Positions 2,107 through 40,581 of a DNA stretch of 46,391 bases are shown here, piece by piece (the stretch's first letter is position 1; each line of letters opens with the position of its first letter). Source of the DNA: Elusimicrobiota bacterium (GTDB taxonomy: Bacteria > Elusimicrobiota > Elusimicrobia > FEN-1173). The position numbers were made by a program, and so were the translations under genes. The notes beneath the pieces are model-generated. The model had not been told where the DNA came from and did not search any database. It saw nothing but the letters and a program-made list of their open reading frames with translations. Location of the stretch: positions 1-46,391 of the forward strand of contig JAKLDV010000005.1 in the NCBI GenBank assembly GCA_022703335.1. The letters are read 5' to 3'.

Positions 2107-5100
2107 GTGCGGAACAATCTCACCGGAAACCGGGAGGAACCCCACGTCGGCTACACCCACACGGAAGAAAATCTCCGGGAAGAGGGGCTGGGAATCCGAC
2201 GGATCCGTTCCATGAACGCCATCTCTCAAAAGTTGTATGCCCTGCCCCTCGCCTCCGACACGACCAGGACTTCAGCGGCGGAGGGCGTCTGGGAAAAATT
2301 GGTCCGGCGGGGAGAGGCCCGGGTCCTCGACGCGGGAACGCACAAGAAACGCTACGTGTATTCCGTCTCCCTCCCCGCGCCGAAAGCCGAACCCGCGAAA
2401 ACAGCCGCCTCGTTCGCGGACGAGATCAACAAACTTTCGGTTTACCCGGTCACCATCTCTTCTCAAGAAGACCGCCAAAGAACCCTGAACGCCATTTCCG
2501 AACTTCTGGAGGAAATCGACCGACCCATTGTGTTCATGTTCGACATCGACCAAACGCTGATGGAAAAAAACGGCCGGCCGCTGGTTCGGAATTTCAAGGA
2601 ATTGCTCCGGGTCTTACGCCGCCGGAACCACCTCGTCGGCGTCGTCACCCATCGCGCCGCCGTCATTGAAAAATTGTCCGGCGACACTGACGGAGACGCC
2701 GCCCGGGACATCACACAAAGCGCCGAATACGCGGAACTCGAGCAACAGCTGGCCGGACTGGGCGTCCGGATAGACGACCTCGATTATCTCGCCATGGGCG
2801 GCGTCGTTCTCGATGAAAATCGCTACATCGGTTACGTACGGACGCAAAACCGGTTCGATAAAAACCGGCCGGGGCCCGCCCAAAGGATTTACCCCGTCGA
2901 CGCCCCCTGGAAAACCAGCAAGCTCTTCGCCCTGTCGCACGCGGACGATCTTCTGGCGGACCGGCTGGGCCGCGACAATTTCGACGGCGCCGACCTCGTG
3001 ACCATCGGCGACGACCTCGAAAAAGACCATTCCACCGTCCACATGCAGCCCCACATCCCAAAACACGCCGACCGGGTGGCGGATTTCTTAACTCAAATGA
3101 AGGGCTCTGCCGTGATGCAAAAAACGCTGGCCCACCTCCGGAAATTCACGGGGATCATCCCCCCCAACGTGTCCGTGCACAGCAAAAAGATTGGGTTCAC
3201 CAACGCGGCGGGGGTCAAGGATTTCTCCCTGCCCGACGACGCGGTGGAAAAGGACGCCGCCTTTTTCGCCATGGAAGAAACCATCCTCCGGCAACTCCGA
3301 ACCCTCCAGGCATCGAAAGAATCGGAGCGGGTCCTCCCTCTTCTCCCGGTGCCTCTCTCGGCCGAACCGAAAACCCCCCAGACCGCCGAAGAATTCCTGG
3401 CGCAGCGGCATGGCGCCCCGAGGCACGACGGCCTTCTGGCCCGGATCCGGTCCGTGTCCGAATGGAATGTCCTCGGCGAAACCGGGGAATTTATGACGGT
3501 TCTGGAACACCCCGACGTTGACTTCATCCTCAAAGTCCCCAACGCCGCGACCTTGCAGAACGAGGTCCAGGCGGACCGCATCCTCGAAAATTATGAACTG
3601 GGCGTGGAGCGCCTGGGCGGACTGATCCCGTTCACCGCGATCCTGCGCAACGTGACGCTCCGCACGGAAGGCAAACCGGCAGAGACCTACCCCTACGTCA
3701 TCGTGCAAAAGAAGATCCGGCCACTGCAGACCGTCGTGTTCGAGCCCGATCAACACCGGAGGACCGTCCGAGAGTTCGTCTCGCTGACCCATCGTCTCTG
3801 GGAACGCGGCGTGTTCGACAAGGACATGGGCAACGTCATGGAGAACTACGGCTACGACGACGCCGGGAACCTGGTCCTGTTCGATCTCAGCCACCTCACC
3901 GACGCGCCGGACGCGCTCCCGGTGTATATCGAAAACTGGAAATCGCTGGCGCCGCCGTTTTATCGGGCTTTCCAATTTGACGAAGTGGAACCCCATTGGA
4001 GGCGCGGCCTCGACGCGACGCGGCGCGCGGATATCCCGGCCGAAGAACCGGGCCTCCTCTCGCTTCCCAAAGCGCTCCTGCCGTTCTGGCCCCAACGATG
4101 GGTCCAGCGCCATCCCAACCGCCTGGCGACCATAGAGACGTTCCTCTTCCAGGGGCTCCTGGTGGGTGGAGTTTCCCTTGTCCTGCATGCGTGGCTGGGG
4201 TGGGACCTGAAGCCCCTCCTGGCCGCCACGGGGCTGTTCAGCTCGCTGCTTTTTACCGTTCTGCATTACGCGGTTTATTTCGACGCCCAGGCGCCGCCGG
4301 TCCGACTCGGATGGAACCCGTTCCGTCATTTCGGCGTCCGCGTGAAACTCCTGGCGCTGGCGCTGGTCCTGGGATCCGCCGTCGGGATCGGGATCCTCGT
4401 TTCGCCCGTCTGGGGCGGCCTGCTGGGACTCGGGACAGCCGTCCTGATCCATCTCTCCTATTTGAAACTCCCCGGCATCGTTTCTTTCCTCCGTCGACTG
4501 TCGGCGGAACCCCTGCACGATATCCTGTCCCCTCAAAAAACAGGGTGGGCGCGGACGCTTTCTTATATCTCGCATCCCGCCTCCGCCGGCCTCTTCGAGG
4601 CCGTCGGGCTCGTTGGCGTCGTGGCCGTGCTGAACCCCGTGACCCCTCTCTCCTGGATGTTCGTGTACGTCGGCTTTTTCTTCGCCCACCCCCGGAACAT
4701 GCGTATCTTCATCGACTCCTGGAAAAAACGGAAACTCGACAAGGAAGACGCCCTCACCGTGGCGGCGGAGGCGTTCGCGGAGGCCCTTTGGGCGGCGACG
4801 TTCTTCCGGTTCACGTCCCATTGGATCACCGTGGTGGCCGTGCTTTACTGGCTGTCCTACCCCCAAACGCTCAAAACGCTCTATGCCCTCAGCAAACGCC
4901 GCATCGGACCACGGGAACTTCTTTACAGGGGAATCCAGTTGATCGGAATTTTCGTCTGGATCGCGCCTTATTTCACCCCATGGTCCCTGTTGACCGGCGG
5001 GCTGATCAGCGGCGCGTTCCTGTTGTTCTGGGACCTGATCTTGTCCCCGCGGCTGGGCCTACCGATCCTGGCCGCCATCGGCGACGACCCGGACAAAGGC

Positions 5101-8100
5101 CTCCTGAACCGCTGGAGGGCCCGTCAAACGCCGCGCGTTTCTCCCGCCGGCGCTCGGAAACCGGACCTCCGCAGCGCCAAACGGCGCGACGTGCTCCGAT
5201 ACTTCGTCGGGCTGGGAATGGCCGGGGCCGTGGAATTGCTCAACCCGCAACAATTGTTTGGGAAAGTGGCGCAGCCGGCCGGGATGACGGCGAAACATCG
5301 GATCCTGCCCGGCGAAAAACTCTCCTCCATCGCCGAACTGTACGGCGTTGACGAAGAAACCGTCCGGCAGGCCAACCGGCTCCCCGGCAAAGCCGCCCTG
5401 AAACCCGGAACGTTCCTTAAAATCCCCGGCGTGTCGGAACTGCCGGCGCCGGACGACATGCGGGCCCTCCTGGAAGGATTCAACGTCGTTCCGACGCAGC
5501 AGGCCATCCGGCTGTGGAACGCCGCGGCGGACATCCCCTCCAAGACCTCGGCCGTGGCCCGGGCCATGGGTTGGACGACCGTGGCCTGCAAAAGTTCGGC
5601 CTACAATCCCTGGATCATCTACGAGGTGAAGTGGCAGATCGACCACGCCGTCGAGACCGGCCTGAGCCCGGAAAAACTGGCGCGCCTCAAAAAATTCTAC
5701 GAGCAGGTCAAAACGAACGCTTCCGAGGTGAGCATCCAAAAAATGACCCGGGACCTCGACAAGCCCCAGATGCCCGTCTCCGCCCACCGGGGGGACGTCT
5801 GGGAACCGCTCCTCATCGTGCGCGAAGAGAACGGGAAAGTCGTGGGGTGGGACATCAACCGCTTCGGCCACGTGGCCGTCAACCCGCGGAAAATCCCCAT
5901 CGGTTCCCTCATCCTGATTGAGATCGACGGTAAATACACGCCGGACGGGAAGACCATCGTCATCCCGGCCAAGGCCTACGACACGGGCGGTCATTTCCTG
6001 AGCGGCCGGCTGGACATCGACGTGGGCTACGTGCGCGCCCGAAAAGACACCAACCCCAAATCCGGGACCTGGAATCGGCCAGACATCGCGGATGTGGTGC
6101 GAGAAACGCCCCAACTGGCCGCAAACGACCTGGTACTGCCGGTGGACGGCCTGCAAATCTTCCTCCCCTTCGGGGCTTTTTCCTTCATCACCATCGGCTA
6201 CCACCAAGGGGAGACTCTGCGCTGGTACGCCAAAAAGGACGCCATCAAGGTCCACGTGGTGAAACGGCCGCTCGGCCTGTTCCCCTTCTGGCCGCGGGCG
6301 TGGGTGCAAAAATATCCCAAAACGCTCGCCACCGTCGAAACCGTGATCTTGGGCGGCCTCGTCGGCGGCGTCTCTCTCCTCCTCAACCACTTCCTCGGCT
6401 GGGACCTGAAATGGGTGCTGAGCGGCATCGGGCTCCTTTTCGCCCTGGTCTTCTCGCTGATGCACCCTGCGGTTTATTACGACATCCTCGCGCCGCCCCG
6501 ATCGCTGGCCGACATGACGCCCGGAGAACGGTGGCGCGCGCGAGGAGCGCTGTTCGCCCTGGGCTTGACCATGAACGCGGCGGTGGCGGCGGGCGTCCTG
6601 CTGGGACCCGTCCTGGGCGGTCTCCTCGGCTTGGCCGCCGCCGGCCTCCTGCATCTCGGATACAACCTCCGCTTCGCGCCGCGGTGGTCTCTCCCCCTGG
6701 CCATCTTCGGACGAAAAACGGTCTCCCCAGACCGACCAAAAGAGGCAACGCCGCCCGCAACGATATCGACCGTCGAGACCGCCCGGCTCCTGGCCGAACT
6801 CCTCAACGGCATCGAGCCCGACCAGCTGATCGAGTGGGCCGCGGCCGACGCCCGAACCGGCCGAGATTTCGATCGTCTCGCAAAAGACATCGCCGTCCGC
6901 GTGTTCGAAAAAGGCCCGCGCGGGGTCTCTCTCGGACAAGTCCTCGCCGCCCTGGCCGTCCTCCACGCGCGGGAGGGTCGCCCCATCGGCCACGTCGCGG
7001 CGGCGTTGGACGGAAACGAGAAAGACGCCGGCCTTTTCTTCGCCCTCTTGACGGATAAAAAACCGGAAGAATCCGCCCATTTCCTTCGATTCCTCGGTAA
7101 AACCGCCGAGGTTTTGCCGCCGCAGGACCGTCCGGCCCTGGAAAAATTGATGGAGGAATTCATCTCGGCCCAACTGAAAAAATCGGGCGACATGCTGTTG
7201 GATTTCGTCCGGCAAACCCTGGACGAAGCCCTCGCCGCGCAACGCCAAACCGGGGAACCGGCGGTGGTGGCGTTCCTTTTCACCGGCGCCGAACCGCTCT
7301 ATCGGGTCGCCCAGGCGATAAAATCGTCCGATCCGAAATACGTCTCGCTCTCCCTGAAGCCGCTGTATCTCACCAAAAAGATCATCAACGGCCACGAGAA
7401 GCCGGAGGTCTTCCGCTACCTGCAGGCACAGGGACTGTTCGATTGCCGCACGCTCATTCTGGCGGACACCGGGTTCCTCGGCAGTATCCCGCGCTACGTG
7501 CACCGCTTGGTGCGTGAAAACGGTCTCCGCGCCCCTCCCGAGATCAAAGGACGGATGCTCTGCTACAACACCGACGAGGAGGACAACCGGCACCTCGCCC
7601 AGGACCAAAGAGCGGGCTTCGACATCCAGGGATACAACACCCGCTCCCGGAAATTCCCCCGCCGGACCGAACTTGAAAATTTTGTCTGGTTCCTCGACAT
7701 GGCGCTGGCCCACACGCACAACTCCCCGGAAAAGATTGCGAAGGACCGCCCCGTCCTGTCGGAAATGCCTCTGCCCGTTCTAAGGAACCTGGGAAACCGC
7801 CTCCTCGCCCAATTCCTCGGTTCCCAACGGTCGCCCCTCGATCCAGAGGTCGTGTACGAGCCGCCGACCTTCCTCACCGATCCCGGCCGCCTCCTGATCG
7901 ACGGAGAAAAAGCCCGCTGGCTGGCCTCCGGCATGGAAAACAACATCTTCCAGCATCCCACGCAGCCCTGGGTGGTGCGGGTCCGACGCCTCAGCGGGGC
8001 CGACGACGTGAAACTGGAGGCGGCCAATTTCGCCCTGCTCGCCAAAAAGGGTCTGGCCCCCGCTCCCATCGCCAGGGGCGTCACCAACGGCCACGGCTAC

Positions 8101-11100
8101 CTGGTGGTCGAAAAAATCGAAGGGCTCTCCCTCGATCGAATCCGTCGGACGTCCCCCTCGGCCCTGGAGCCGGGGCTCTCGGCAACGCGGCAACTTCTGA
8201 CCGAACTCCTCCGGGCGAGACTCTTCCTGCAGGACTGGAAACCGGAAAACGTCATGTTCGGCCATCGGCCCGGCGAACCCTCCCGGGCCCTGGTGGTGGA
8301 CGCCCGTTATTTGGAAAAAACCCCGCAACTTCCCATCCGGGAATTGGCTCTCCGTTACCGGCAAGCGCTTTACGGTTTCGACGGCTGGAAAACGTGCGAC
8401 CCCCAAAAGAAACTGCTGGCCTTCCTCAACGACGTCATCGAAGGTCACACCATCCTGGAGGGAGAAGAAGAGATTTTCCGACGAGGCGCGGTCGCGCACG
8501 ACATTTCATCCAAAACAACCCCCGTGCCGAACGAACCGTCTGTCGTCCTGGTCGGGGCCGACAACTCCCGCGATTTCGACGCGGAAGCCCTGACGCGCTT
8601 GGAATCCGCCCGCCGGAACTCCGCCGAGGCTTTTTCGGAAAAACTCCTGGCCGAACAGTTAGCGCGGCTGGAAAAGAACCTCTCCAAGGTGAACGGTTTC
8701 TCATTCCGATGGGCGCAAGCCATCGCGGAACGTCTTCGAGCCGAGCACAGCATCAACGTGGACCTTGCGCCGACCCATTTCACGCTGGCCTCCGTCATCC
8801 AGGAATTGATCAAGAACGCTTTTGTTCATGGCAACCGGCTGGATCTCTCCCGCTCCGTGCGGATCAACTGGGCCGTAGAAAACGGCCAACTGTCCGTGAC
8901 GGTCACAGACCACGGCACGGCCCCTGTCGAGTTCACGACCCCGCCCCGCGCACTTGATGCGGAATTCGAAGCCCGTCTCAAAATCGCCTCCGTTGCCGGG
9001 ACCGGCGAAATCACCAGCAACCACCTGGGCGCCAAACTGATGCGAAAAAATGGGTATGACCTCCGCGCAATGCCGTTTGAAAACGCGGAAGGCCGACAAA
9101 TCGGCAATTCTGTTGTGGCCACGATTCCGCTGACTCAACTCTCCGGCCCCGTCGAGGATCCTGTCCTGGCCCGCTGGCAGGCTCGTCGCTCACAAGAAAC
9201 GAGCAGCCGATCCGAATCCTCCGGCAAATCGATCATTGACGCGACGCCCCACGGCCTGTTCCCCTTCTGGCCGCGGACGTGGGTGCGGAAATATCCCAAA
9301 ACGCTCGCCACCGTCGAGACCGTGATCTTGGGCGGACTGGTGGGAGGCCTGTCGGCCCTCCTCACCCATTACACCGGTTGGGATCTGAAATGGGTTCTCT
9401 CGGGCGTGGGCGCCGCAACCGCCCTTTTCTTCGCCCTTCTGCACGGAGCGGTTTACTACGACATCCACGCGCCTCCCCGCTCGCTGGCCGACATGACGCC
9501 CAGCGAGCGGTGGCGCGCGCGAGGGACGCTGTTCGGCCTGGGATTGGCCATGAACGCCGCGATGGCGGCGGGCCTCCTGATGGGTCCCGTGGTGGGCCCC
9601 CTCCTCGGCTTGGCCGCGGCGATCCTTCTCCACATCGGCTACAACCAGTGGCTCGCCCCCCGCGCGGGACTTCCCCTCGGGACGATCGGCGGTGAAAGCT
9701 GGCGTGACGACTACGAAGCCCCCCTGAGCCGGAGCTTTGAATGGTTCATCAACCAGGCGAAGGAACTCGTCCTGCCGGCCAAGACGCGGGAAAAATTCCA
9801 CGAGACCGGCAAAGCGAAAGATTTCCCGGGACTCTCCGCCGTCCTGACGTTCAAGAAGGGCTCGCCGACGCACGATCGCGTAAGGACGTTGATGGGCCAA
9901 TTGAAAGGGGATTTGGAGCGGGCCGGCGTCTCCCATTACTTTGCGTTCCTGGATGCCGCGGACTACGAGCCCCACATGACGCTCTACGACACCGCCCTCC
10001 GGCCGGACCGCCCGCTGACGGACGAATTGACCCGCAAGGTCAAGGACGCCTTCACGGGACTGGCGCAGGAAAACCTCGTCCCCGCGGAATGGTCGGCCGC
10101 CGGCTGCGCCATCTCCGCCGGAGAAGGCGGGGCCTCCATCGTCCTGCGGACCCACCCGAAACAAAAACAGGACCTGGACACCGCCCTCCGAGTCCGGGAC
10201 CGCCTGCACGCCGCCCTCCGATCCCCGGACAGAGGCGTCGGAACGGACGTCCCGTTCATCGGCCACACGACACTGGCCTACATCGTCAAGGACATCCCTC
10301 CCGCCGATTATCGAAAAGTGCAGGACATCCTCCGCCGCTACGTGTTCCAGTCCGCCGGCAACTTCCTTTTCGACCGGGTCGAGTTCAGGAAATTCAACAC
10401 CATGTTGGACTGGGACGACCCCCTGGCCGAATTGACATTGCAACCGGGCAGCGCCGTCCCGCAGAAGCCGAAGAAGAAATGGCTGATCCACGACACCGGG
10501 GCTGCCCCCATCGCGGAGATCGCCGGGTTTCTGTCCGTGACCGGATATCCCCAGCTCATCGCCAGGGAACTCACGGAAGCCATGAACCGGCGGCTCGCCG
10601 AAGGGAAGAAAGTCGCCCTGCTTTCGCCGGAGGTCGGGCGCCTGCTCATGGAGTACGGCCTGTGGACGGGAGACGCCGCCATGAATTTCTTCGGAAGGTT
10701 CGAAAAGGCGGACAAAGCGGTCATTTTCACGGCGCTCAAAAAAGCCGATATCCCGGTGCTCAAACGCTATTTCCAAAAGGACCACCCGCCGAAGCCGGAC
10801 CTGTCGCGATCCATTTTCGAAGTCCTGGCCAAAATATTGGCGCGGCGCAAAAACGACACCGTTGAAAAGGTCGCCCGGTTCCTGAACGCCGACGGCCGGC
10901 AGAAGGAGTCGGATTACAACGACCTGCCGCACATGCGGGAAGCCGTCAAACTCATCAAGGACGCCGTCAAGAAACAGGAGAAGATCGTCATCTTCGGCGA
11001 CTACGACGTGGACGGCGTCACCGCCACCGCCATCATGCTCAAGACCCTCCACCGGATTCTGAAAGCCGAGGGGATCCCGCCGGAAGACTACGGAAAATAT

Positions 11101-14100
11101 CTCGGCTATCACATCCCCAACCGCTTCACCGAGGGCTACGGCATGTCCGTCGCGGGGGTCGACGAGGTCATTGCCGAAGGGGCGAAGCTCCTCATCACCG
11201 TGGACAACGGCATCCGCTGCCGCAAACCCGTGGAACGCGCCCTCGAACTGGGGATTCGCGTCATCGTGACCGACCACCACCAGCCCGACAAAGAAAACGC
11301 GGACACCCCCGTCAACGTCCCTCTCATCCACGCCATGTACATCGAAGAACGGGATCATCCGGCCAAACACATCTCCGGCGCCGGCGTCGCCTACAAACTG
11401 GCCCAGGCGCTCATGGACGATTACGGCATCCAACGACCGGCCGACGACCTCCTCGACCTGTTCGCCTTCGGCGCGGTGGCGGACCTGGTTCCCCTGCGCG
11501 GAGACAACCGGCTCCTGGTGACACGGGGGCTTGAACTCATCAACAGCCCGCGCGTGAGTCTCGGGATCCGAAAGCTTCTGGAAGTCGCTCGGAAGAACGG
11601 GAAAATCAAGGAAGACCAACTCGTGGAAACAGGCACCATCGGCTACTACCTGGCCCCCATGATCAACGCCTCCGGTCGAATCGCCTCCGCCACGGAAGCC
11701 CTCGACCTTCTGATGACCGAGGACGCGGCGATGGCCGACGAATATGCCGGCCGACTGTATGAACTGAACATGGAACGGCGCGAGATCGAGGCTCAGATGG
11801 TGGAACTTGTCGAAACGCGGCTGAAAAAGGAATTTGACTCGCAAACCAAGGGGGCCATCGTGGTCGGCGAGGAAGGATGGAACGAAGGCGTCATCGGCAT
11901 CCTGGCCTCCCGAATCGTCGAAACGTGGGGATTGCCGGCGGCGGTGTTTTCCATCGACAGGGAAAAGGGCATCGCCAAGGGCTCCATGCGCACCATCCCC
12001 GGCGTCAGCGTCATCGACGCGCTGACGGAATGCCAGAAGCAGGGGCTCGTGCTCAAGGGCGGCGGGCACGAGGCCGCCGGCGGGTGTTCGGTCGCGCTCG
12101 ACAAGTTCGAGGAATTCAAACGCGCCTACAGCGACGCCGTCCGGCGCCAGATGGAGACGAAGAACATCGAACCGTTCATCGAACTGGACGCGCTCCTGGC
12201 CACCGAAGATATGGGAATCCCGCTCATCCAATTGCTGGAAAAACTGGCGCCGTTCGGGGTCGGCAACGCCCGGCCCGTCTTTGCCGGCCGCGGACTGCGG
12301 GTAACTTCCTACAAAATCAGCAAGGACGGGAAACACGTTCGCGGAATCCGCCTGGATTCCCCCAACCGTTCGCTTGAAGCCGTGGCCTGGCGGATGGCCA
12401 CGCCGGAAATCCTCCAACTGCTCAACGACTCGGTCCGCACCGGAAAAAAACTCGATCTTATTTTTACCCTGGAGACGAGCGACTTCGGCGGCGTGCACCC
12501 CCAGCTTGTCCTGCGGGACATCCGGCCGGCCTCCGAGACCTCTCCGGCCGAAACCGCCCGCCTCGCGAAAGCCGTCGTCGCCGGCGGCCCCCTCCGCCCC
12601 GTCACACCTCCCCGCGAACGACTGGAAAAAATATTGACCCGCGCGGGCAACGGGGACCTCCCCTCTGACGACATCGACGACATCCTCCAGGCTTGGGAAG
12701 GACTGCGGGTCTACAAATACAAGACCCTGGAAAAAGAGAGTGTCGACTTTTTCATCCGGCTCCTGGAACGTCTCAAGAAATTGCCGGACGTTCAGCGTGA
12801 AGAAATTCTCGACCGGCTTCATCCGCTTTTTGAAACAATGTTGGACGATCAATCTGAGGATTGGCGGCAGTCGTTCCTCAACCTCCGGTCCCCGAAAGAT
12901 CAACCCCGGCCCCTCTGGGCCCAACCTCTGGACTTCAACGCATTGTTCGACGACACGGACGTGCTTCTGTTCGGCGACACGCACACAATGATCTCCCAAC
13001 GGGCGTTCCTGGCGCAGCGCATGCGGGAGCTGAAAGAAGCCGGTGTCACGCATTTCGTTTACGAAGGCGTGGGGAGGCAGGTCAACAACCGGGTGAGGGA
13101 AGACAGACGGGTCACGCTGATAAAAGGCGACAACATCGCCACACAAATGCTGCGCCGGGCTGCGGAAGAAGCCGGAATACAGTTCGTTCCCATCGACATG
13201 TCGGCCCAACTGATGGATTCCATACTGCGGAAGTTGAGTTCCTTTGCAAGTGCGCGTTTGGGCAGGTCTTACGACTTTGAAACTCTGAAACAGTATCTTA
13301 CAACAGACACCGTCTACGACGAATTGGTCATGAGACGGCGAAACATTTATTTCTCGAACTTCATCAAAACGATCCTGCGGAACAACCCGAACGCCAAAAT
13401 CGCCGGAATCATGGGTGAAACTCACCTTACGTCCAAACGCGTCCGAGGCGGCGCCACGGGCGTCGTTGAACGACTTCGTTCCGCCGGCATCCATGCGAAA
13501 GGCGTGCGGCTCGAAAACGCCGAATCCGCCGAGGCCCCCCTCTTCGACGGGACACGATGGGACGCGCCCGGTCGGGGATCCACCGTCTACATCCCTCGTG
13601 ACATGACCTACTGGGGACGTTATATCCTCGATACCTTTCTTACCCCGCCGGCGACCCCTCCCGAAAAAACGCCCGCCCGCAAAGACGGCGGGTCGCTGGC
13701 CGATCGAATCTCTCGGGCGTCCTGGCGAAGGGTCTCGGAACCCTCCCTGGTCGGCCACGAGGTGGAGGTTTTCGTATCGGATGAACTGGGTCTCGTGGTC
13801 AAAGTCCCTCGTCCAAAAAACAAAAAGAAATGGAACACCGTGGTCAAACCACACGCTCAAACCGCCATTGAGAGGCTGGGCCCCGAGGCGGCGAACGCCG
13901 CGCCTCTCGCCCCCCCGACCGTTCTTCTGAAAAACATCCAATTGACTGTGGACGGGCAAACCCTCCGCTTTGACGAAGGCATCGCACAGGCGCGCGTTCC
14001 GTTGCTGGGCGAGGTCATGCACGAACTGGACAAGACCGGCGACCTGGCCGGCACGACCGCCCTTTTGAACCAGCTGATCGGACTCCTGACCGACCTGGCC

Positions 14101-17100
14101 CGACGCGGCCTCATTTATAACGACGAGTTCGTCCTTAAGAATTTCGGCGTGTGGCGCGGCAAGGACGGCCGGCTGTCTGTCGTGGTCATCGATTTCGGAG
14201 CGCTCACGCCCGGCCAGGGACTCCTGGACAAAGACCCGGACCTCATCTATTTCTACCCCGCCTACGTCGATTCCCTCAAAGATAACCTGAAGGGCTGGCA
14301 CACCCCCTACGGAAAATTCCGCTATGCGGAAAAACTCATCGCGTGCCTTGACGCGGAAAAATATTTTCTGACACTGAACCATCTACTGGGCGAACTGGGA
14401 GGATTGGCCAAACCGCTGGCGCCGCCGACGCCGAGCTCTCCTCAAAAAGCGGCCCGGCCGTTCGACGTCTCGCACAACGCAACGGCGTGGCTGGCGGGCG
14501 CGGTGGCCCTCTCCCTGGGACTCCTCCTCACCGTTTTCGGCGCCGCGTTCGTGGCCCACACCGCCGACCCCGCCGCCTTTTGGGTCAGTCTCCTCGTCCT
14601 CGGCTGGGGCCAGCTTTTCACCTGGAACGGCCAGGCCTATCTGCGACGCTATTATGCGGACTGGAAAAAAGCCAACTCGTTCCGGGCCGGCACCACAACA
14701 CGGCCGGCCCCCTCGGAAGAAACCACCCCCATCGACGAAGAGCTCTGGCAGTCCTACGTGGCGGGACTAAAGAAGATGAATCCGGACTTCCGCGCCGAAG
14801 ATCTCCGGGTGGACTGGGACGGCCAAAAAACCCGCGGCTCCCGTCTGGCCTCCACCGACGAGGATGGGAATGTCTGGCTGGACCCGTGGCTGGTGACGGA
14901 CGTGCGCCAATGGGTCACGGCCCAAAACCGGACGGCTCTGGAACAGTCGGACGTGCGCCTCCTCTTGCTCCAAAAGGAACTGCTGCCCCTCATCGTTCAA
15001 CACGAAGGACTGCGCGTCCGCTACACGCAGCATCCCCTCCTTCAAATCCCACTTCTGCAAACCCTCTGGATCTATCTCACCAAACCCGCGCCCGAACCCA
15101 TTGACGTTGCGGCGGCGTCGGCGAAAAAAGAACCGACACGTCTCGAACGGGTCCTTCAAGACATCCGGTTGTTCCGGAAAAATTTTACGCGCCTTGAATC
15201 CCTCCTTGCCGCCGATACGCAAGGGGATCCTCTTCATATCCACGGGCACGTCGCGAACGGCCTGGCCCTCCTGTCATCGCTGGACGGGGAACCCGTAACC
15301 CGGCCGGTGGAAGAATGGGAGGACCTGCGTGACCGCCTGGCGCGGACACTGAACGACATTGAGAGGCGCGTCGGAGCCTCGATGTTTCCCCGCAGCGGAC
15401 GGCCGGAGTCGGAACTGCAACAAAAACTCGAGTGGCTCAAAAACGACGCGGGCATCACGTCGGAAACCACGGCCGAGTCCCGGCGGACATACGAACGATA
15501 TTTATCGAACCGGCAATCGGATCCCCTCCAATTGGGAATCACCGGCGGCCTTTACGGCGGCAACACGCGTCTTCTGCTGGCGCGCCGGCTCGGTCTGGAA
15601 CCTTACCGAATTCCCGTAACAACGGTCGTGAGAGGCGGCGAACAACCGGAGACCCTTCTGACGGCCGCGGTGGCGGGCCGGCTGGACGCCCATCGACGGG
15701 AAAGCCAAATCACCGACGCCGACCGGGCCGCCCGGCTGGGCGCCCTCGTTTCGCGACTTCTGCGAAACCTGGTTGAATCCGGATATATGTCCGCCGCGGA
15801 CAGCCGGGATTTCGTCACCGCGGAAAAGTCCGAGAGCTGGCGGCGGAGCCTGGCGGCCGACAACCTGGATCCGGTCAAACACGCCGTCTTCATCGAAGGC
15901 GCGCTCTGGCAGAGACTCTACGGAGCGGTTCGGGACCGCGCCCCGGGAGTCTCTCTCTCCTCGGACGAATTGACCGCTGCGCTCGATACCGCGATGATGC
16001 GGTTGACCGCCAAAGACGAGAAAAAAGCCGCGACGACGGCGGCAAAACCCGTTTTGCCCACGACACCGGAAAAACCGGCCGCCCCCTCTGAACGGACGGT
16101 CGAAACGCCTTCTTTCGATCTCCGCTCCGGCGGGTTCCCCGCCCTTCTCCACGGACTCGGCGTGTGGACGCGGCTGGCCCGCGCGACCCGGCTCGTCTAT
16201 GCGGGCCTGACGCTCGGCGTTTCCCCCGTCCAACTGGCCCGCGCCGAATCCATGGCCTATGCCCTGGCGGAAACCGCCGCAAAAGCCATGTTGACCGCGA
16301 AAACCGGCATCAAGACAGAACAAAAAGCGGACGGCACTCTGGTCACCGAAATGGATAAACGCATCCAGGACCTGGCCGCGGCCGAGATCCGTCGCCGCTT
16401 CCCCCGACACACGATCTTCGCCGAAGAAGGGGCGGCCCAGCGGACCGTGAGCGAATGGATGTGGACGATTGATCCCATCAACGGCACCAAAGCCTACGCC
16501 GAAGGCGGCACGGAATATACTTTCGACATGTCGTTGTTGCACAACGGCCGGCCGGTCTTGGCGGTCAGTTTCGCGCCGGAAATGACGGCGGCGGGCCAAC
16601 CGGGAGTGCGCGCCATCGGCAGCCGATGGACCGGCACTCTATTGAACGGAAAACCGGTCCGTTTTGATCGCTCCCAAGATGGAAAACGGGACTGGGACGT
16701 GATCTCCCGCTCGAGCGTCTCCCGAAAAAAAGACGATGCGTATCTGCGGACCTGGCGGGACCTCTATGGGGAATCCCACGTCCGGCAAGTCAGCAACGGA
16801 GCACTGGCCGGCCTGCAAATCCTGACCGAACAGAACGACGCCGTGTTCTCCAACGTGGTGGCGGAACCCTGGGACCCGGTGGCCATCTCCGCTCTCCTGG
16901 AATGGGCCGGGGGAGCACCCCTCCGATACGACGGCGCCTCCTACTTCCCGCTCACTCCGGCCGATTTCGACCGCGCCGGGCAGGGATCTTCCGGTTACAT
17001 TCTGACCCGCGGCGGGATCCACGGCAAGCGCGCCGCGGAAGCGGCCTCTCTCTCCAACGGCCTTCCGGAACCCGCGAACACGCCGATCGACATCGGCGTC

Positions 17101-18294
17101 GACATTCAACTCGCCGTGCCGCCCGTTCAACGGCCGCTTTCCGAAATTAAAGATTCCGATGTTTTGGTCGCCCGCCTCCTACCTTTGGCGGGCGATTCCA
17201 GCGCCTCCAGTTCTTCCCCCTCCCTCCTGGAGGCGCTGACTCTTTCCTCCGAAAAAACGGCGGCCGGAACCGGGAACCGGCTGCCGCTGGAACGACTGTC
17301 TCCCGAGGCGGCCCGACGGCTCCTTCCTTATATGACGGATGCGGAACGACGCGCCTACGGCGCGACCCTCCGGCGAGAGGCGAAAAACATCCGGGATTCC
17401 CTGTCGGCCGGCCGCGCCGACGAAGGCGCGTTCCGGGAACTCCTGCGGAACGTCGGACGAGTCCACGGACAGGGCGGCGTCCTGTTCATGCCGGCCAACG
17501 CCGCGGACATCCCCCGACAAAAACGCCGCGAAATGGGCCATCTCGTCCGTCTCGCTTATGAGTCCGGACTGATTCCCGCCGGCGCCGTGGACGGCGTCGC
17601 GGCCCAAAAACTTCAGGGATACATGGACGTCTATAACCGCGCCCGGCATACCGCCGAAATGCGGACAAACCGGTCCGCCGTCGACCGGCTGAGGGAATCG
17701 GCCTCCTCTCTCCTCCGGAAACTCCGCGAACTCGTCCTGGGAGACGCCTCCCTGCGGGTGTTCCACATTCCCGTGTCGCGCGATGCGGCCGGAAAACTCC
17801 TCCTGCTGGACGACGCGCGCACCGGACTCTGGCTGGACCGCCTCTCCCGCACCCTATCGACGGAAGGACAAAAAGTCAGGACCGTCCTGGTGACGAACGA
17901 ATCACTTTCGTCAAATGAAAAAGGCGAACTTTGGGACCTGGTCGTCGCGGCGCTCGCCCGGCGAACGGCCTCCGCCGCGGAGGCGGCGCAGATCGCCGCC
18001 CGGTTGAAAGCTTCTCTGGCCACGGACCGACCGATCCTCTTCCGGGAAGACGTCGGTGACGAAACCCGCCCAGGCATCATCCAGGCCCGGTCCCTTTCCA
18101 AATACCTGAAAGGCGTCCCGGCCGGGGCGGCCATGGACATCTACACGCTGTGGGAGGATCAGTGGGACCTCTCCGGCCTGCGCAAAGAAGCCGTCCGGCT
18201 GCTCGTCCTTTTTTCCGGCGACATCCTCTTCAACGCCGCCGAGTCCCTGGAGAAATCCATCGCCACCATCCGCTACATCCAGATCCAGGCCTGA
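2107..18294 (+). CDS. giant 5395-residue multidomain membrane protein
   Basis: This is one uninterrupted frame of 16.2 kb. Domains in order, by approximate residue: HAD-like phosphatase 139-328; kinase-like 447-618; membrane repeat 1 at 657-788 and further hydrophobic segments to ~1010; Tat-like segment 1026-1045; LysM 1063-1108; 3D domain 1248-1312; membrane repeat 2 at 1389-1535; an unrecognised 400-residue part; kinase-like 1939-2065; HATPase 2197-2345; membrane repeat 3 at 2382-2529; 2H phosphoesterase 2537-2772; RecJ 2890-3485; Tiki/ChaN-like 3612-3811; kinase-like 3872-4038; two hydrophobic segments ~4125-4190; IMPase-like 4712-4985; unrecognised C-terminus. GTG 2107 and ATG 2212 are possible starts and neither has a clear ribosome-binding site. 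Long frames are known in Omnitrophota. The function is unknown: it could be a polyprotein, a surface giant or a membrane-bound signalling scaffold. Confidence 0.85.
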   Translation: MRNNLTGNREEPHVGYTHTEENLREEGLGIRRIRSMNAISQKLYALPLASDTTRTSAAEGVWEKLVRRGEARVLDAGTHKKRYVYSVSLPAPKAEPAKTAASFADEINKLSVYPVTISSQEDRQRTLNAISELLEEIDRPIVFMFDIDQTLMEKNGRPLVRNFKELLRVLRRRNHLVGVVTHRAAVIEKLSGDTDGDAARDITQSAEYAELEQQLAGLGVRIDDLDYLAMGGVVLDENRYIGYVRTQNRFDKNRPGPAQRIYPVDAPWKTSKLFALSHADDLLADRLGRDNFDGADLVTIGDDLEKDHSTVHMQPHIPKHADRVADFLTQMKGSAVMQKTLAHLRKFTGIIPPNVSVHSKKIGFTNAAGVKDFSLPDDAVEKDAAFFAMEETILRQLRTLQASKESERVLPLLPVPLSAEPKTPQTAEEFLAQRHGAPRHDGLLARIRSVSEWNVLGETGEFMTVLEHPDVDFILKVPNAATLQNEVQADRILENYELGVERLGGLIPFTAILRNVTLRTEGKPAETYPYVIVQKKIRPLQTVVFEPDQHRRTVREFVSLTHRLWERGVFDKDMGNVMENYGYDDAGNLVLFDLSHLTDAPDALPVYIENWKSLAPPFYRAFQFDEVEPHWRRGLDATRRADIPAEEPGLLSLPKALLPFWPQRWVQRHPNRLATIETFLFQGLLVGGVSLVLHAWLGWDLKPLLAATGLFSSLLFTVLHYAVYFDAQAPPVRLGWNPFRHFGVRVKLLALALVLGSAVGIGILVSPVWGGLLGLGTAVLIHLSYLKLPGIVSFLRRLSAEPLHDILSPQKTGWARTLSYISHPASAGLFEAVGLVGVVAVLNPVTPLSWMFVYVGFFFAHPRNMRIFIDSWKKRKLDKEDALTVAAEAFAEALWAATFFRFTSHWITVVAVLYWLSYPQTLKTLYALSKRRIGPRELLYRGIQLIGIFVWIAPYFTPWSLLTGGLISGAFLLFWDLILSPRLGLPILAAIGDDPDKGLLNRWRARQTPRVSPAGARKPDLRSAKRRDVLRYFVGLGMAGAVELLNPQQLFGKVAQPAGMTAKHRILPGEKLSSIAELYGVDEETVRQANRLPGKAALKPGTFLKIPGVSELPAPDDMRALLEGFNVVPTQQAIRLWNAAADIPSKTSAVARAMGWTTVACKSSAYNPWIIYEVKWQIDHAVETGLSPEKLARLKKFYEQVKTNASEVSIQKMTRDLDKPQMPVSAHRGDVWEPLLIVREENGKVVGWDINRFGHVAVNPRKIPIGSLILIEIDGKYTPDGKTIVIPAKAYDTGGHFLSGRLDIDVGYVRARKDTNPKSGTWNRPDIADVVRETPQLAANDLVLPVDGLQIFLPFGAFSFITIGYHQGETLRWYAKKDAIKVHVVKRPLGLFPFWPRAWVQKYPKTLATVETVILGGLVGGVSLLLNHFLGWDLKWVLSGIGLLFALVFSLMHPAVYYDILAPPRSLADMTPGERWRARGALFALGLTMNAAVAAGVLLGPVLGGLLGLAAAGLLHLGYNLRFAPRWSLPLAIFGRKTVSPDRPKEATPPATISTVETARLLAELLNGIEPDQLIEWAAADARTGRDFDRLAKDIAVRVFEKGPRGVSLGQVLAALAVLHAREGRPIGHVAAALDGNEKDAGLFFALLTDKKPEESAHFLRFLGKTAEVLPPQDRPALEKLMEEFISAQLKKSGDMLLDFVRQTLDEALAAQRQTGEPAVVAFLFTGAEPLYRVAQAIKSSDPKYVSLSLKPLYLTKKIINGHEKPEVFRYLQAQGLFDCRTLILADTGFLGSIPRYVHRLVRENGLRAPPEIKGRMLCYNTDEEDNRHLAQDQRAGFDIQGYNTRSRKFPRRTELENFVWFLDMALAHTHNSPEKIAKDRPVLSEMPLPVLRNLGNRLLAQFLGSQRSPLDPEVVYEPPTFLTDPGRLLIDGEKARWLASGMENNIFQHPTQPWVVRVRRLSGADDVKLEAANFALLAKKGLAPAPIARGVTNGHGYLVVEKIEGLSLDRIRRTSPSALEPGLSATRQLLTELLRARLFLQDWKPENVMFGHRPGEPSRALVVDARYLEKTPQLPIRELALRYRQALYGFDGWKTCDPQKKLLAFLNDVIEGHTILEGEEEIFRRGAVAHDISSKTTPVPNEPSVVLVGADNSRDFDAEALTRLESARRNSAEAFSEKLLAEQLARLEKNLSKVNGFSFRWAQAIAERLRAEHSINVDLAPTHFTLASVIQELIKNAFVHGNRLDLSRSVRINWAVENGQLSVTVTDHGTAPVEFTTPPRALDAEFEARLKIASVAGTGEITSNHLGAKLMRKNGYDLRAMPFENAEGRQIGNSVVATIPLTQLSGPVEDPVLARWQARRSQETSSRSESSGKSIIDATPHGLFPFWPRTWVRKYPKTLATVETVILGGLVGGLSALLTHYTGWDLKWVLSGVGAATALFFALLHGAVYYDIHAPPRSLADMTPSERWRARGTLFGLGLAMNAAMAAGLLMGPVVGPLLGLAAAILLHIGYNQWLAPRAGLPLGTIGGESWRDDYEAPLSRSFEWFINQAKELVLPAKTREKFHETGKAKDFPGLSAVLTFKKGSPTHDRVRTLMGQLKGDLERAGVSHYFAFLDAADYEPHMTLYDTALRPDRPLTDELTRKVKDAFTGLAQENLVPAEWSAAGCAISAGEGGASIVLRTHPKQKQDLDTALRVRDRLHAALRSPDRGVGTDVPFIGHTTLAYIVKDIPPADYRKVQDILRRYVFQSAGNFLFDRVEFRKFNTMLDWDDPLAELTLQPGSAVPQKPKKKWLIHDTGAAPIAEIAGFLSVTGYPQLIARELTEAMNRRLAEGKKVALLSPEVGRLLMEYGLWTGDAAMNFFGRFEKADKAVIFTALKKADIPVLKRYFQKDHPPKPDLSRSIFEVLAKILARRKNDTVEKVARFLNADGRQKESDYNDLPHMREAVKLIKDAVKKQEKIVIFGDYDVDGVTATAIMLKTLHRILKAEGIPPEDYGKYLGYHIPNRFTEGYGMSVAGVDEVIAEGAKLLITVDNGIRCRKPVERALELGIRVIVTDHHQPDKENADTPVNVPLIHAMYIEERDHPAKHISGAGVAYKLAQALMDDYGIQRPADDLLDLFAFGAVADLVPLRGDNRLLVTRGLELINSPRVSLGIRKLLEVARKNGKIKEDQLVETGTIGYYLAPMINASGRIASATEALDLLMTEDAAMADEYAGRLYELNMERREIEAQMVELVETRLKKEFDSQTKGAIVVGEEGWNEGVIGILASRIVETWGLPAAVFSIDREKGIAKGSMRTIPGVSVIDALTECQKQGLVLKGGGHEAAGGCSVALDKFEEFKRAYSDAVRRQMETKNIEPFIELDALLATEDMGIPLIQLLEKLAPFGVGNARPVFAGRGLRVTSYKISKDGKHVRGIRLDSPNRSLEAVAWRMATPEILQLLNDSVRTGKKLDLIFTLETSDFGGVHPQLVLRDIRPASETSPAETARLAKAVVAGGPLRPVTPPRERLEKILTRAGNGDLPSDDIDDILQAWEGLRVYKYKTLEKESVDFFIRLLERLKKLPDVQREEILDRLHPLFETMLDDQSEDWRQSFLNLRSPKDQPRPLWAQPLDFNALFDDTDVLLFGDTHTMISQRAFLAQRMRELKEAGVTHFVYEGVGRQVNNRVREDRRVTLIKGDNIATQMLRRAAEEAGIQFVPIDMSAQLMDSILRKLSSFASARLGRSYDFETLKQYLTTDTVYDELVMRRRNIYFSNFIKTILRNNPNAKIAGIMGETHLTSKRVRGGATGVVERLRSAGIHAKGVRLENAESAEAPLFDGTRWDAPGRGSTVYIPRDMTYWGRYILDTFLTPPATPPEKTPARKDGGSLADRISRASWRRVSEPSLVGHEVEVFVSDELGLVVKVPRPKNKKKWNTVVKPHAQTAIERLGPEAANAAPLAPPTVLLKNIQLTVDGQTLRFDEGIAQARVPLLGEVMHELDKTGDLAGTTALLNQLIGLLTDLARRGLIYNDEFVLKNFGVWRGKDGRLSVVVIDFGALTPGQGLLDKDPDLIYFYPAYVDSLKDNLKGWHTPYGKFRYAEKLIACLDAEKYFLTLNHLLGELGGLAKPLAPPTPSSPQKAARPFDVSHNATAWLAGAVALSLGLLLTVFGAAFVAHTADPAAFWVSLLVLGWGQLFTWNGQAYLRRYYADWKKANSFRAGTTTRPAPSEETTPIDEELWQSYVAGLKKMNPDFRAEDLRVDWDGQKTRGSRLASTDEDGNVWLDPWLVTDVRQWVTAQNRTALEQSDVRLLLLQKELLPLIVQHEGLRVRYTQHPLLQIPLLQTLWIYLTKPAPEPIDVAAASAKKEPTRLERVLQDIRLFRKNFTRLESLLAADTQGDPLHIHGHVANGLALLSSLDGEPVTRPVEEWEDLRDRLARTLNDIERRVGASMFPRSGRPESELQQKLEWLKNDAGITSETTAESRRTYERYLSNRQSDPLQLGITGGLYGGNTRLLLARRLGLEPYRIPVTTVVRGGEQPETLLTAAVAGRLDAHRRESQITDADRAARLGALVSRLLRNLVESGYMSAADSRDFVTAEKSESWRRSLAADNLDPVKHAVFIEGALWQRLYGAVRDRAPGVSLSSDELTAALDTAMMRLTAKDEKKAATTAAKPVLPTTPEKPAAPSERTVETPSFDLRSGGFPALLHGLGVWTRLARATRLVYAGLTLGVSPVQLARAESMAYALAETAAKAMLTAKTGIKTEQKADGTLVTEMDKRIQDLAAAEIRRRFPRHTIFAEEGAAQRTVSEWMWTIDPINGTKAYAEGGTEYTFDMSLLHNGRPVLAVSFAPEMTAAGQPGVRAIGSRWTGTLLNGKPVRFDRSQDGKRDWDVISRSSVSRKKDDAYLRTWRDLYGESHVRQVSNGALAGLQILTEQNDAVFSNVVAEPWDPVAISALLEWAGGAPLRYDGASYFPLTPADFDRAGQGSSGYILTRGGIHGKRAAEAASLSNGLPEPANTPIDIGVDIQLAVPPVQRPLSEIKDSDVLVARLLPLAGDSSASSSSPSLLEALTLSSEKTAAGTGNRLPLERLSPEAARRLLPYMTDAERRAYGATLRREAKNIRDSLSAGRADEGAFRELLRNVGRVHGQGGVLFMPANAADIPRQKRREMGHLVRLAYESGLIPAGAVDGVAAQKLQGYMDVYNRARHTAEMRTNRSAVDRLRESASSLLRKLRELVLGDASLRVFHIPVSRDAAGKLLLLDDARTGLWLDRLSRTLSTEGQKVRTVLVTNESLSSNEKGELWDLVVAALARRTASAAEAAQIAARLKASLATDRPILFREDVGDETRPGIIQARSLSKYLKGVPAGAAMDIYTLWEDQWDLSGLRKEAVRLLVLFSGDILFNAAESLEKSIATIRYIQIQA
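2521..3963 (+). other. HAD-like and first kinase-like domains of the giant protein
   Basis: FDIDQT (D146, D148) is the HAD motif I DxDxT, and IGDDLEKD near residues 300-306 fits motif IV, so a phosphatase-type HAD is likely. It is followed by an APH/protein-kinase-like segment. DKDMGN (D572, D574, N577) takes the place of the HxDxxxxN catalytic loop and FDLSH (D593) the place of DFG. The substrate is unknown. The kinase assignment rests only on these spaced motifs and on the preceding beta-rich LKVP segment, which may hold the ATP lysine. Confidence 0.6.
4075..4470 (+). repeat. membrane cassette, copy 1
   Basis: Begins LLPFWPQRW and contains LATIET, GWDLK and AVYFDAQAPP, the same landmarks in the same order as copies 2 and 3. 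About four hydrophobic segments are visible. It is the most diverged copy and lacks the SLADMTP block. It is followed by about six further hydrophobic segments up to ~5100 that the other copies do not have. Confidence 0.8.
5176..6045 (+). other. internal Tat-like segment, LysM and 3D domains of the giant protein
   Basis: AKRRDVLRYFVG followed by a hydrophobic run looks like a twin-arginine signal (R1027, R1028), but about 1025 residues into the chain. Next is a LysM domain: HRILPGEKLSSIAELYGV, then LKPGTFLKIP. Then comes a 3D domain: VAVNPRKIPIGS, then AYDTGGHFLSGRLDIDVGY with the conserved aspartates. LysM binds peptidoglycan glycan and 3D domains occur in lytic transglycosylase-like cell-wall enzymes, so this part is expected outside the cytoplasm. 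It looks like a formerly separate exported protein. Confidence 0.65.
6271..6711 (+). repeat. membrane cassette, copy 2
   Basis: Landmarks in order: LFPFWPRAWVQKYPKTLAT, GWDLKWVLSG, AVYYDILAPPRSLADMTP, GERWRARG and MNAAVAAG, with about four membrane segments. At DNA level it is very close to copy 3. The first ~80 bases differ at only about four positions and the block around SLADMTP is also nearly unchanged, which suggests recent duplication or gene conversion inside the gene. Confidence 0.88.
6712..9200 (+). other. unrecognised segment, second kinase-like domain and HATPase of the giant protein
   Basis: Residues ~1535-1935 are not recognised. A core with FLFTGAEPLYRVAQ and LILADTGFLGSIP faintly resembles HAD or phosphoribosyl-type proteins of surface-polysaccharide loci. 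Residues ~1939-2065 look like an APH-type kinase: QDWKPEN (D2043, N2048), with D2065 in VVDARY at the DFG position. Residues ~2197-2345 carry a GHKL/RsbW-type ATPase with N-box ELIKNAFVHGN (E2233, N2237) and VTDHG (D2268). RsbW-type ATPases are anti-sigma kinases; the partner here is unknown. Confidence 0.6.
9250..9693 (+). repeat. membrane cassette, copy 3
   Basis: Same landmark order as copy 2: LFPFWPRTWVRKYPKTLAT, GWDLKWVLSG, AVYYDIHAPPRSLADMTP, SERWRARG, MNAAMAAG. About four hydrophobic segments. It separates the HATPase from the 2H phosphoesterase and RecJ parts. Confidence 0.88.
9715..10425 (+). other. 2H phosphoesterase-like domain of the giant protein
   Basis: Two H-x-T motifs about 97 residues apart, PHMTLYD (H2623, T2625) and GHTTLAYI (H2720, T2722), are the signature of the 2H superfamily (LigT/CPDase-like). 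These enzymes open cyclic phosphodiesters or ligate or cleave 2'-5' bonds. The distance between the motifs and the surrounding beta-rich sequence fit the fold. The substrate cannot be read from the sequence. It lies directly before the RecJ part. Confidence 0.7.
10774..12560 (+). other. recJ: RecJ single-strand DNA exonuclease domain inside the giant protein
   Basis: A complete RecJ arrangement is present. DYDVDG (D2965, D2967, D2969) is DHH motif I, followed by TVDNG, VTDHH (D3056, H3057, H3058) and FGAVADLVPL. The DHHA1 half has EGVIGILASRI and GGGHEAAGG (H3321). An OB-like end, from LAPFGVGNARPVF to LEAVAWRM, closes it. RecJ degrades single-stranded DNA 5' to 3' in mismatch and recombination repair and is normally a free cytosolic protein of ~560-600 residues. 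All catalytic residues appear intact. Embedding in a 5395-residue membrane chain is unusual. Confidence 0.9.
12940..13540 (+). other. Tiki/ChaN/EreA-like domain of the giant protein
   Basis: GDTHTM (D3624, H3626) resembles the G-[ED]-x-H opening motif of the EreA/ChaN/TraB/Tiki fold. FVYEGVG follows where the second acidic motif is expected, then RRNIYF, and later GIMGETHL resembles the closing G-x-x-H motif. Members are metalloproteases, haem-binding proteins or esterases, so the activity is open. The assignment comes from motif order only. Confidence 0.5.
13720..14220 (+). other. third kinase-like domain of the giant protein
   Basis: LVVKVPRPKNKKKW may supply the ATP-binding lysine. YNDEFVLKNFG (D4006, N4012) fits a catalytic loop without the usual histidine, and VVIDFGAL has an intact DFG (D4029-G4031). 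Of the three kinase-like parts this has the most canonical magnesium motif. It may be a small-molecule or protein kinase, or a pseudokinase. Confidence 0.55.
16240..17040 (+). other. inositol-monophosphatase/CysQ-like domain of the giant protein
   Basis: FAEEGAA gives the first metal glutamate, WTIDPINGTKAY aligns with the WxxDPxDGT signature, and AEPWDPVAI carries the last metal aspartate. The second aspartate of DPxDGT is asparagine here (codon AAC at 16480-16482, N4792). That residue is a metal ligand in the family, so catalysis may be weakened or lost. The rest of the fold looks complete at ~270 residues, the usual length. Confidence 0.75.
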
Positions 18295-21640: not shown

Positions 21641-22628
21641 CGTCCGCCGCCCCCTTCTCCTCTTCGCGGCCAAGCTGGCGTTGATGGCGGCGCTCGCGGC
21701 GGCCACCTGCCTGGCCACCTTCGTGCTGCCGCTGCCCTACGACCAAAACCTGGCCGTCATCATCAACAAACGGGACCGGCTCAGGAACATGCCGGGAGAG
21801 CGGCTCATCTTCGTCGGCGGGAGCGGACTCTTCGGCGGGCTGGACGTCCGCCGCCTCGAGGCGGAGCTGAAGAAACCCGTGGCCAACCTGGGCTTTTTCG
21901 CGGGGTTCGGGATCTTCCATCTCCTGGACGAAGTAACGCCTTTCCTCCGTCCGGGAGACACCGTCCTCATCGTCCCCGAGTACGGCCTCATCCGCCAGGA
22001 TTTCCAAAACAACGAACAATCGCGGAAGTGGATCCTCCGGCTCTCGCCCGGGCGCCATGCCCTTCAACTCTACCCGCCGTCAAAGGACGGGCTGGTCAAT
22101 TTCGTTCAGGATTCCGGCGCACTGCTTCTGAGCCAACTGGCCACCCTCCGCAAAGCCGTGGAAACCCTCTTCAAACGGGATACCCGTTTCTACACCCCGC
22201 GGGGATTCGTCAAATACCGGCTCATCACGGACGAAACGGGCGAACCGACCGAACATCACCGCTTCGCCGTGGTCCCGGCGGACCAAGTGGCGGGGAAAGG
22301 GGATACTTATCCGGACCTCACCGTAAAACCCGAATCGATGGCCCTCCTGAACAATTTCGGGGAGGCGGCGGCGCGCCGAGGGGCCCGCGTCCTCTTCGTC
22401 TTTGCGGCGTTTCCACGCGAGGAATACGAACTCAACAAAGCGGCCATCGACCGGCTCCACCGGCAACTGAAAAACGAACTGCGTTTCGACATCGTCGGCC
22501 AACCCGAGGATTTCATCTATCCCGGCCCCCTTTTCGCCAACTCCATCGACCACCTCAACGCGGACGGCGTGCGCGAACGAACCGACAAGCTCCTCGCGCT
22601 GCTCCGGCCCCACCTTCAAAACAAATAG
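21612..22628 (+). CDS. DltD/AlgX-like extracytoplasmic SGNH-type partner of the MBOAT protein
   Basis: 338 residues with one N-terminal membrane anchor (about residues 15-40) and the rest probably periplasmic. FVGGSGLFGGLD resembles the block I GDS/GxS serine motif of SGNH hydrolase-like acetyltransferases, and SIDHLNADGVRERT near the C-terminus fits the final D-x-x-H block. TVLIVPEYGL lies between them. It overlaps the MBOAT gene by 29 bp and is followed by a hairpin. Assignment to an exact family (AlgJ/AlgX, DltD or DUF1574) is not possible by eye. The inferred role is final transfer of acetyl groups to a cell-surface glycan. Confidence 0.7.
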   Translation: MKNSSTSSSDVRRPLLLFAAKLALMAALAAATCLATFVLPLPYDQNLAVIINKRDRLRNMPGERLIFVGGSGLFGGLDVRRLEAELKKPVANLGFFAGFGIFHLLDEVTPFLRPGDTVLIVPEYGLIRQDFQNNEQSRKWILRLSPGRHALQLYPPSKDGLVNFVQDSGALLLSQLATLRKAVETLFKRDTRFYTPRGFVKYRLITDETGEPTEHHRFAVVPADQVAGKGDTYPDLTVKPESMALLNNFGEAAARRGARVLFVFAAFPREEYELNKAAIDRLHRQLKNELRFDIVGQPEDFIYPGPLFANSIDHLNADGVRERTDKLLALLRPHLQNK

Positions 22629-22652
22629 GACGCCGGACCCCGTCGGAGGAAT

Positions 22653-22683
22653 AAAAAAAAGACCGTGACGACGTCACGGTCTT
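22653..22683 (-). terminator. terminator of nrpR
   Basis: A perfect 11-bp stem (22659-22669 with 22673-22683) has a 3-nt loop. On the minus strand it is followed by eight T residues, so it terminates nrpR. It may also act as a weak bidirectional barrier for the MBOAT operon. Confidence 0.88.
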
Positions 22684-22709
22684 CCTCCCGCCGGCCAATC
22701 CGACGGCGC

Positions 22710-23717: not shown

Positions 23718-23726
23718 TGAAATTTC

Positions 23727-38918: not shown

Positions 38919-38973
38919 CCTTCTCGGTCGACCCCTTTCTTTCGAAAATACCTTCCGGCGGCTACTCCCCCGG

Positions 38974-40559: not shown

Positions 40560-40581
40560 GTTTCTTTCCGGGAACGGGCCG

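Follow-up and report, generated by a model that had tools for sequence, protein, structure and literature searches.

The window analysed here is the entire 46,391-nt contig JAKLDV010000005.1, which belongs to a fragmented metagenome-assembled genome (2.66 Mb in 268 contigs) of an Elusimicrobiota bacterium. A preliminary description of this DNA reported one uninterrupted frame of 5,395 residues, and that frame is open throughout 2107–18294 with uniform coding periodicity (GC2 lowest, GC3 0.67–0.84). Its proposed start and extent did not stand, however, as the same reading frame continues upstream to nt 1 with the same codon periodicity, uniform over 18 kb, and a TAG at 2098–2100 is the sole break between the two parts. 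The frame is delimited by the following features (G005 and G002 being related genomes):

1..2097, plus strand: upstream part in the same reading frame (frame 1), 699 codons, open at the contig edge
1966..2373, plus strand: domain lying across the TAG and the proposed start GTG 2107, 28–31% identical to continuous stretches in two relatives
2098..2100, plus strand: in-frame TAG breaking an otherwise continuous domain, whose homologue is stop-free in G005 C33 and G002 C280
2107..18294, plus strand: open frame as first described, 5,395 codons, stop TGA

Since the frame fills nt 1–2097 and the window is the whole contig, the gene runs off the contig edge: 2107–18294 is most of the gene but not all of it, and the 5′ end lies beyond the contig. 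This missing end could not be joined from another contig. The open frame measures 16.2 kb, or no less than 18.3 kb when the upstream part is counted, its 5′ end being off the contig, while the criterion for Omnitrophota giants is >20 kb. The domain spanning the TAG was matched to stop-free homologues in G005 C33 (E = 1e−17 and 1.3e−16 in two comparisons) and G002 C280 (E = 5e−20 and 3e−23), which makes GTG 2107 an improbable natural start. The TAG itself may be a mutation or an error; a readthrough site is less likely, and reassignment of the codon is disfavoured because four other mechanically called open frames in the window, one of them with a SurA_N match, end in TAG.

A minus-strand open frame of 1,730 aa (9190–14382) lies within the giant gene and was taken as a by-product of GC-rich sequence; open frame length by itself is thus poor evidence in this DNA. 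Homologues and domains were found for the giant frame only, and not for the spurious long frames. An Rfam search gave no match, internal promoters did not exceed the chance level, and terminator-like sites, at 51 versus 25.8 in shuffled sequence, lay mostly on the minus strand and gave no evidence of function. Several downstream open frames (20209–23720 and 38463–46025) had no Pfam match at E 0.01.

At least ten unrelated modules had been proposed along the chain. Many unrelated modules are indeed present, but they do not stand on an equal footing, Pfam support being uneven:

about 361–727, plus strand: recurrent module, also present in three other giants
about 1084–1611, plus strand: CheR-like methyltransferase (PF01739, 64.4 bits)
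2404..3126, plus strand: HAD-like phosphatase-type module (PF08282, E 0.043, below cut-off; motifs FDIDQT and GDDLEKD)
3394..4053, plus strand: kinase-like module 1, AceK-like (PF06315, E 1.1e−4, below cut-off)
4576..5043, plus strand: further hydrophobic segments, from hydropathy
5179..5256, plus strand: Tat-signal-like segment KRRDVLRYFVGLGMAGAVELL (P0001 1025–1050), from a pattern scan, a resemblance only
5296..5427, plus strand: LysM (PF01476, over cut-off)
5872..6030, plus strand: 3D-like domain (PF06725, E 0.012, below cut-off; motif AYDTG...DIDV)
7921..8343, plus strand: APH-type kinase module 2 (PF01636, E 2.3e−7, over cut-off)
8785..8958, plus strand: GHKL ATPase module (PF13581, HATPase_c_2, just over cut-off; N box ELIKNAFVH)
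9955..10386, plus strand: 2H phosphoesterase-like module (PF13563, E 1.2e−4, below cut-off; two HxT motifs)
10816..12519, plus strand: complete RecJ exonuclease module (TIGR00644, 456.9 bits against a cut-off of 396.9; DHH/DHHA1 motifs)
12610..13626, plus strand: Tiki/ChaN-like module (GDTH and GETH motifs; weak PF22079)
13654..14376, plus strand: kinase-like module 3 (motif VIDFG only; no Pfam match)
14500..14556, plus strand: single hydrophobic segment, from hydropathy
14590..15129, plus strand: HEGLR-motif module recurrent in giants (identity as high as 49% to G005 C66 and as high as 69% to G005 C23)
16249..16950, plus strand: IMPase-family module (PF00459, Inositol_P, 98.6 bits; motif DPINGT)
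17287..18291, plus strand: C-terminal module homologous to the G005 C1 C-terminus, its last 70 residues forming the family tail (RYIQIQA)

The RecJ, LysM, APH kinase, GHKL and IMPase-like assignments were borne out by curated cut-offs, with DHH, DHHA1 and RecJ_OB all passing theirs in the RecJ module. The phosphatase, the first kinase, 3D and 2H retained their motifs or weak Pfam matches below the curated cut-off, and the third kinase is left with its VIDFG motif. The Tiki-like module gave no significant Pfam match, but a homologue lies at 8450–8782 of the G005 C1 giant (38–45% identity). Counterparts in other giants were also found for kinase-like module 1 (41–45% identity to G000 C235, the second giant of the same genome, G000 being the genome of the window), for the APH-type kinase (a related stretch in G002 C277) and for RecJ (about 45–62% identity to the RecJ fused in G005 C1). 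The Inositol_P family motif is DP[LI]DGT; DPINGT takes its place here, which makes the activity of the IMPase-like module doubtful. Sequence searches of the PDB with the HAD, 2H, Tiki-like and kinase-3 regions, the N-terminal module and the cassette alignment described below returned nothing useful. The Tat-signal-like segment sits mid-chain, ahead of LysM and 3D, and a similar one occurs at 6228 of a giant in the related genome G017 (C16).

The G005 genome (deposited as Elusimicrobia bacterium RA.bin80) is an order-level relative, and its C1 giant, of 10,270 codons, answers the earlier suggestion to look for the same domain order in related genomes: it carries a membrane cassette followed by RecJ and the Tiki-like module, as in the window, and the two chains share a homologous C-terminus. 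Their C-terminal modules are 34% identical over 375 columns, with the last 330 residues homologous and the same final residue. The preliminary description had also held that orthologues always present as separate genes would speak against a fusion, a test that holds in neither direction, RecJ being separate in other families and fused in G005. Over the cut-off, G000 and G005 possess the fused copy only. In other families RecJ either stands as its own gene or escaped detection; it was undetected in most relatives searched across the class, nearly complete genomes included.

These comparisons bear on the reading that the locus is decaying or mis-assembled, the TAG marking a pseudogene or a sequencing or assembly error and the long frame a chance fusion. 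The TAG does fall inside a conserved domain, the IMPase motif is altered to DPINGT, and the assembly is in many pieces. At the same time, the remaining frame is unbroken with a uniform coding signal, RecJ is intact, and both module order and C-terminal end recur in an independent genome; we therefore regard this reading as very improbable.

The membrane cassettes described between the modules are confirmed, with three in the frame (P0001 650–790, 1384–1535 and 2379–2530):

4054..4476, plus strand: CPBP-like cassette 1 (E677, F716xxxH720, H782; Leu786 in place of the HxxxN Asn)
6256..6711, plus strand: CPBP-like cassette 2 (E1411, F1449xxxH1453, H1516xxxN1520)
9241..9696, plus strand: CPBP-like cassette 3 (E2404, F2442xxxH2446, H2509xxxN2513; PF02517, E 0.069, below cut-off)

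Cassettes 2 and 3 are about 70–79% identical and contain both FxxxH and HxxxN; cassette 1 reads HxxxL. A fourth cassette lies on another contig of the same genome, in its second giant (L007, G000 C235, 3–12044, minus strand). That contig is one open frame of 4,014 codons end to end; its cassette is 69–80% identical to cassettes 2 and 3, and it also has TPR repeats. Across ten cassettes from three genomes, at 40–70% identity, the Glu, FxxxH and His are invariant and the Asn is present in nine. Where CPBP proteases have EExxxR, the window cassettes read E-T-x-x-x-[QG], keeping the first Glu and lacking the EExxxR motif as such.

Aligned with hhalign to canonical CPBP sequences of relatives, the cassettes reached a probability of 88–94% (E = 1.2e−7 to 3.4e−6) with the motifs in register. 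One earlier shuffled control had scored 133, which was put down to gappy columns; a trimmed control with 60 block shuffles was hence used, and without gappy columns the true alignments scored 29–35 (probability 53–81%) against a maximum of 18 among the shuffles. A CPBP model further detected EE-type modules within giant frames, together with intermediates that match both the CPBP and the cassette models, and Pfam placed Rce1-like domains over the cut-off within giant frames of relatives. Two of these lie in one frame of 13,760 codons (G007:C13 in the related genome G007; L077, L092), and both are canonical, with EExxxR intact.

AlphaFold2 models of two cassettes showed four long helices (pLDDT 88 and pTM 0.80 for cassette 3). 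Foldseek searches of these two models against the PDB gave nothing significant, whether Rce1-like or of another kind, one model likewise had no significant match among viral structures, and viral contigs searched for the cassette contained no relative. Support for reading the membrane cassettes as divergent CPBP/Rce1-type modules therefore comes from sequence profiles. The residues critical in MmRce1 are E140, H173, H227 and N231 (PMC6832836), and mutation of E141 impairs the enzyme (PMC10811503). The window cassettes keep equivalents of the former four, save the Asn in cassette 1, and have lost that of E141; predicted protease activity is therefore possible, and the window cassettes may be proteolytically active. 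Thr for the second Glu, Gln or Gly for the Arg and the lack of Asn in cassette 1 all count against predicted cutting.

The same features bear on the main rival to a self-cut chain, an uncut scaffold or surface giant. Here the cassettes would serve as anchors without catalytic activity and the chain would act as a single protein, in line with the roles in adhesion or predation proposed for other Omnitrophota giants. The degenerate EExxxR and the missing structural match to Rce1 are what dead anchors would lead one to expect, P/T/A-rich linkers suit an arrangement of beads on a string, and published Omnitrophota giants have been discussed as surface or adhesion proteins (PMC10066038). However, the invariance of E, H and H and the near-invariance of N in otherwise divergent cassettes are hard to explain for pure anchors, EE-motif CPBP modules occur within other giants, and cytosolic-type enzymes such as RecJ would be odd on a surface. 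On balance, we consider the uncut chain unlikely, if still a serious competitor.

The preliminary description had noted that Omnitrophota carry giant genes, and similar giant architectures do recur in related genomes. Relatives have at least seven such genes each, the complete ones spanning 4,562–10,906 codons (4,562 to 10,270 in G005), and members of the family reach 32.7 kb or more. The N-terminal module was found in 20 of 235 genomes of the class, with at least seven matches in each. Across the phylum, 62 of 341 genomes had it at E ≤ 1e−30, in frames of up to 11,689 codons. By their deposited labels, two of the relatives are Elusimicrobia and the more distant carriers of this module are Omnitrophota.

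The N- and C-termini are common to the family. Giants that retain their start open with a hydrophobic, signal-like N-terminus (by inspection), followed by W-x-x-R-R in most of those retrieved; in complete giants, the signal-peptide-like sequence and W-x-x-R-R precede a Tiki-like domain, and the chain closes with a conserved tail (...IQA-stop). This tail, comprising the last 70 residues, is present in the window gene (...RYIQIQA). A model of the tail, derived from 12 giants, recovered ten further ends, the stop following directly after -QA in nine and after -NA in one. The G017 C16 giant (L124–L125) has the family N-terminus but ends in SRQQ instead of the -QA tail; its frame may be broken or its tail lost. 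From the signal-like sequences, we infer that the giants are probably exported.

Between these ends the content varies, and modules seen in other giants include M20, M3, M48, PP2C, GNAT, LOG-type, dCMP deaminase, PPDK_N, kinase and transporter domains. One giant (L119, G005 C55) contains four Peptidase_M3 and two dCMP deaminase stretches, an instance of intra-protein duplication. In relatives, the whole behaves as one conserved coding frame: a giant shared by the related genomes G017 and G008 is 85% identical over 4,933 aligned codons, with dN/dS of 0.27 overall and 0.18–0.41 per window, and values below 0.42 in every window imply purifying selection along the whole aligned length in that pair, the window gene's own relatives being too distant for such an estimate.

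This disparate content could also be read as a string of effectors delivered from cell to cell, analogous to polyvalent proteins, with nuclease, kinase, phosphatase, peptidase and deaminase activities carried into a prey or host and cut there. Besides the assortment of activities in one chain and the export-type N-termini, the IMPase and PPDK-type modules fit such a role, being divergent extra copies beside free-standing ones, and polyvalent proteins with processing peptidases offer a precedent (PMC5512222). Against this, the RecJ of the window is the only one found in the genome, which suits a role at home, and PADLOC returned one weak kinase match and no other. We judge delivery into other cells improbable.

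Of the options left by the preliminary description (a polyprotein cut into enzymes, a membrane-bound scaffold or a surface giant), the predicted CPBP identity, together with N-termini of export type, points to an exported membrane chain that may cut itself. The window frame would then represent the greater part of a single member in a large family of giants, probably Sec-exported, membrane-threaded and multi-enzyme. Each member would run from an export signal through W-x-x-R-R and a Tiki-like domain into a variable enzyme string and the conserved tail (...IQA), its enzyme modules joined by linkers and CPBP/Rce1-type membrane modules. The latter would anchor the chain in the membrane, and those with the catalytic E, H, H and N would probably cut the chain or its neighbours, freeing the enzymes separately. 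An exported, membrane-threaded multi-enzyme chain, with CPBP modules that anchor it and are predicted to cut it, is as a whole our best explanation, and we hold it to be about evenly poised between right and wrong. For proteolytic cutting of the chain taken separately, our confidence is tentative and leans towards doubt. A broader version, in which exported polyproteins throughout the phylum have constant ends, are self-cut by built-in glutamic intramembrane proteases and exchange their middle by recombination, appears to us rather unlikely, and it is conjecture that the giants equip the cell with an arsenal or tool kit for its contacts with others.

Topology complicates the exported-chain reading. 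LysM and 3D fit the periplasm, RecJ fits the cytoplasm, the N-termini have an exported appearance, and the charges of the cassettes suggest an N-in/C-in orientation under the positive-inside rule. Such cassettes do not go readily with an exported N-terminus, which counts against our best explanation, as does the lack of a Foldseek match for either cassette model. The conflicting signs call for either several more membrane crossings or a cut chain.

Giant genes in Omnitrophota are also reportedly the subject of a 2023 preprint by West-Roberts et al., and Ca. Velamenicoccus archaeovorus is said to encode a protein of 39,678 aa. Giant open reading frames of Omnitrophota are known and have been called poorly understood (PMC10066038; PMC11573180; PMC12057145). 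Those of Seymour et al. 2023 (PMC10066038) resemble the present ones in their many transmembrane segments, few recognised domains and same or neighbouring lineage; in contrast, the family described here is defined by shared ends, CPBP-type modules and a middle of cytosolic-type enzymes. No description of shared ends, CPBP modules or an enzyme string was found in the literature examined, and we provisionally regard as new the common termini, the CPBP modules within the chain and an enzyme middle that can be interchanged. Reports of Omnitrophota giants have so far offered no common architecture or mechanism; with these features in hand, it becomes testable whether the giants are cut, where their enzymes reside and what purpose the C-terminal tail serves, and the shared ends offer a practical handle for finding and completing giant genes in fragmented genomes.

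With the CPBP or type II CAAX proteases (Rce1, Abi, myxosortase), the cassettes share a predicted four-helix core, the Glu, FxxxH, HxxxN and profile similarity; they differ in being embedded repeatedly in giant chains and in having Thr for the second Glu and Gln or Gly for the Arg, and the fold of the window cassettes was not confirmed by Foldseek. Polyvalent proteins of phages and conjugative elements (PMC5512222) likewise string unrelated enzymes into a chain, with peptidase domains proposed as processors, whereas the giants are chromosomal, phylum-wide paralogous and far longer, with membrane modules and export-type N-termini. Viral polyproteins are similar as long chains of different enzymes with embedded modules, here protease-like, but the present case is a cellular gene known from sequence, for which cleavage is only a prediction. 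To our knowledge, viruses are the only established source of polyprotein systems, the polyvalent proteins of phages and plasmids being a further, proposed case; if the chains described here are indeed self-processed, they would constitute a cellular polyprotein system.
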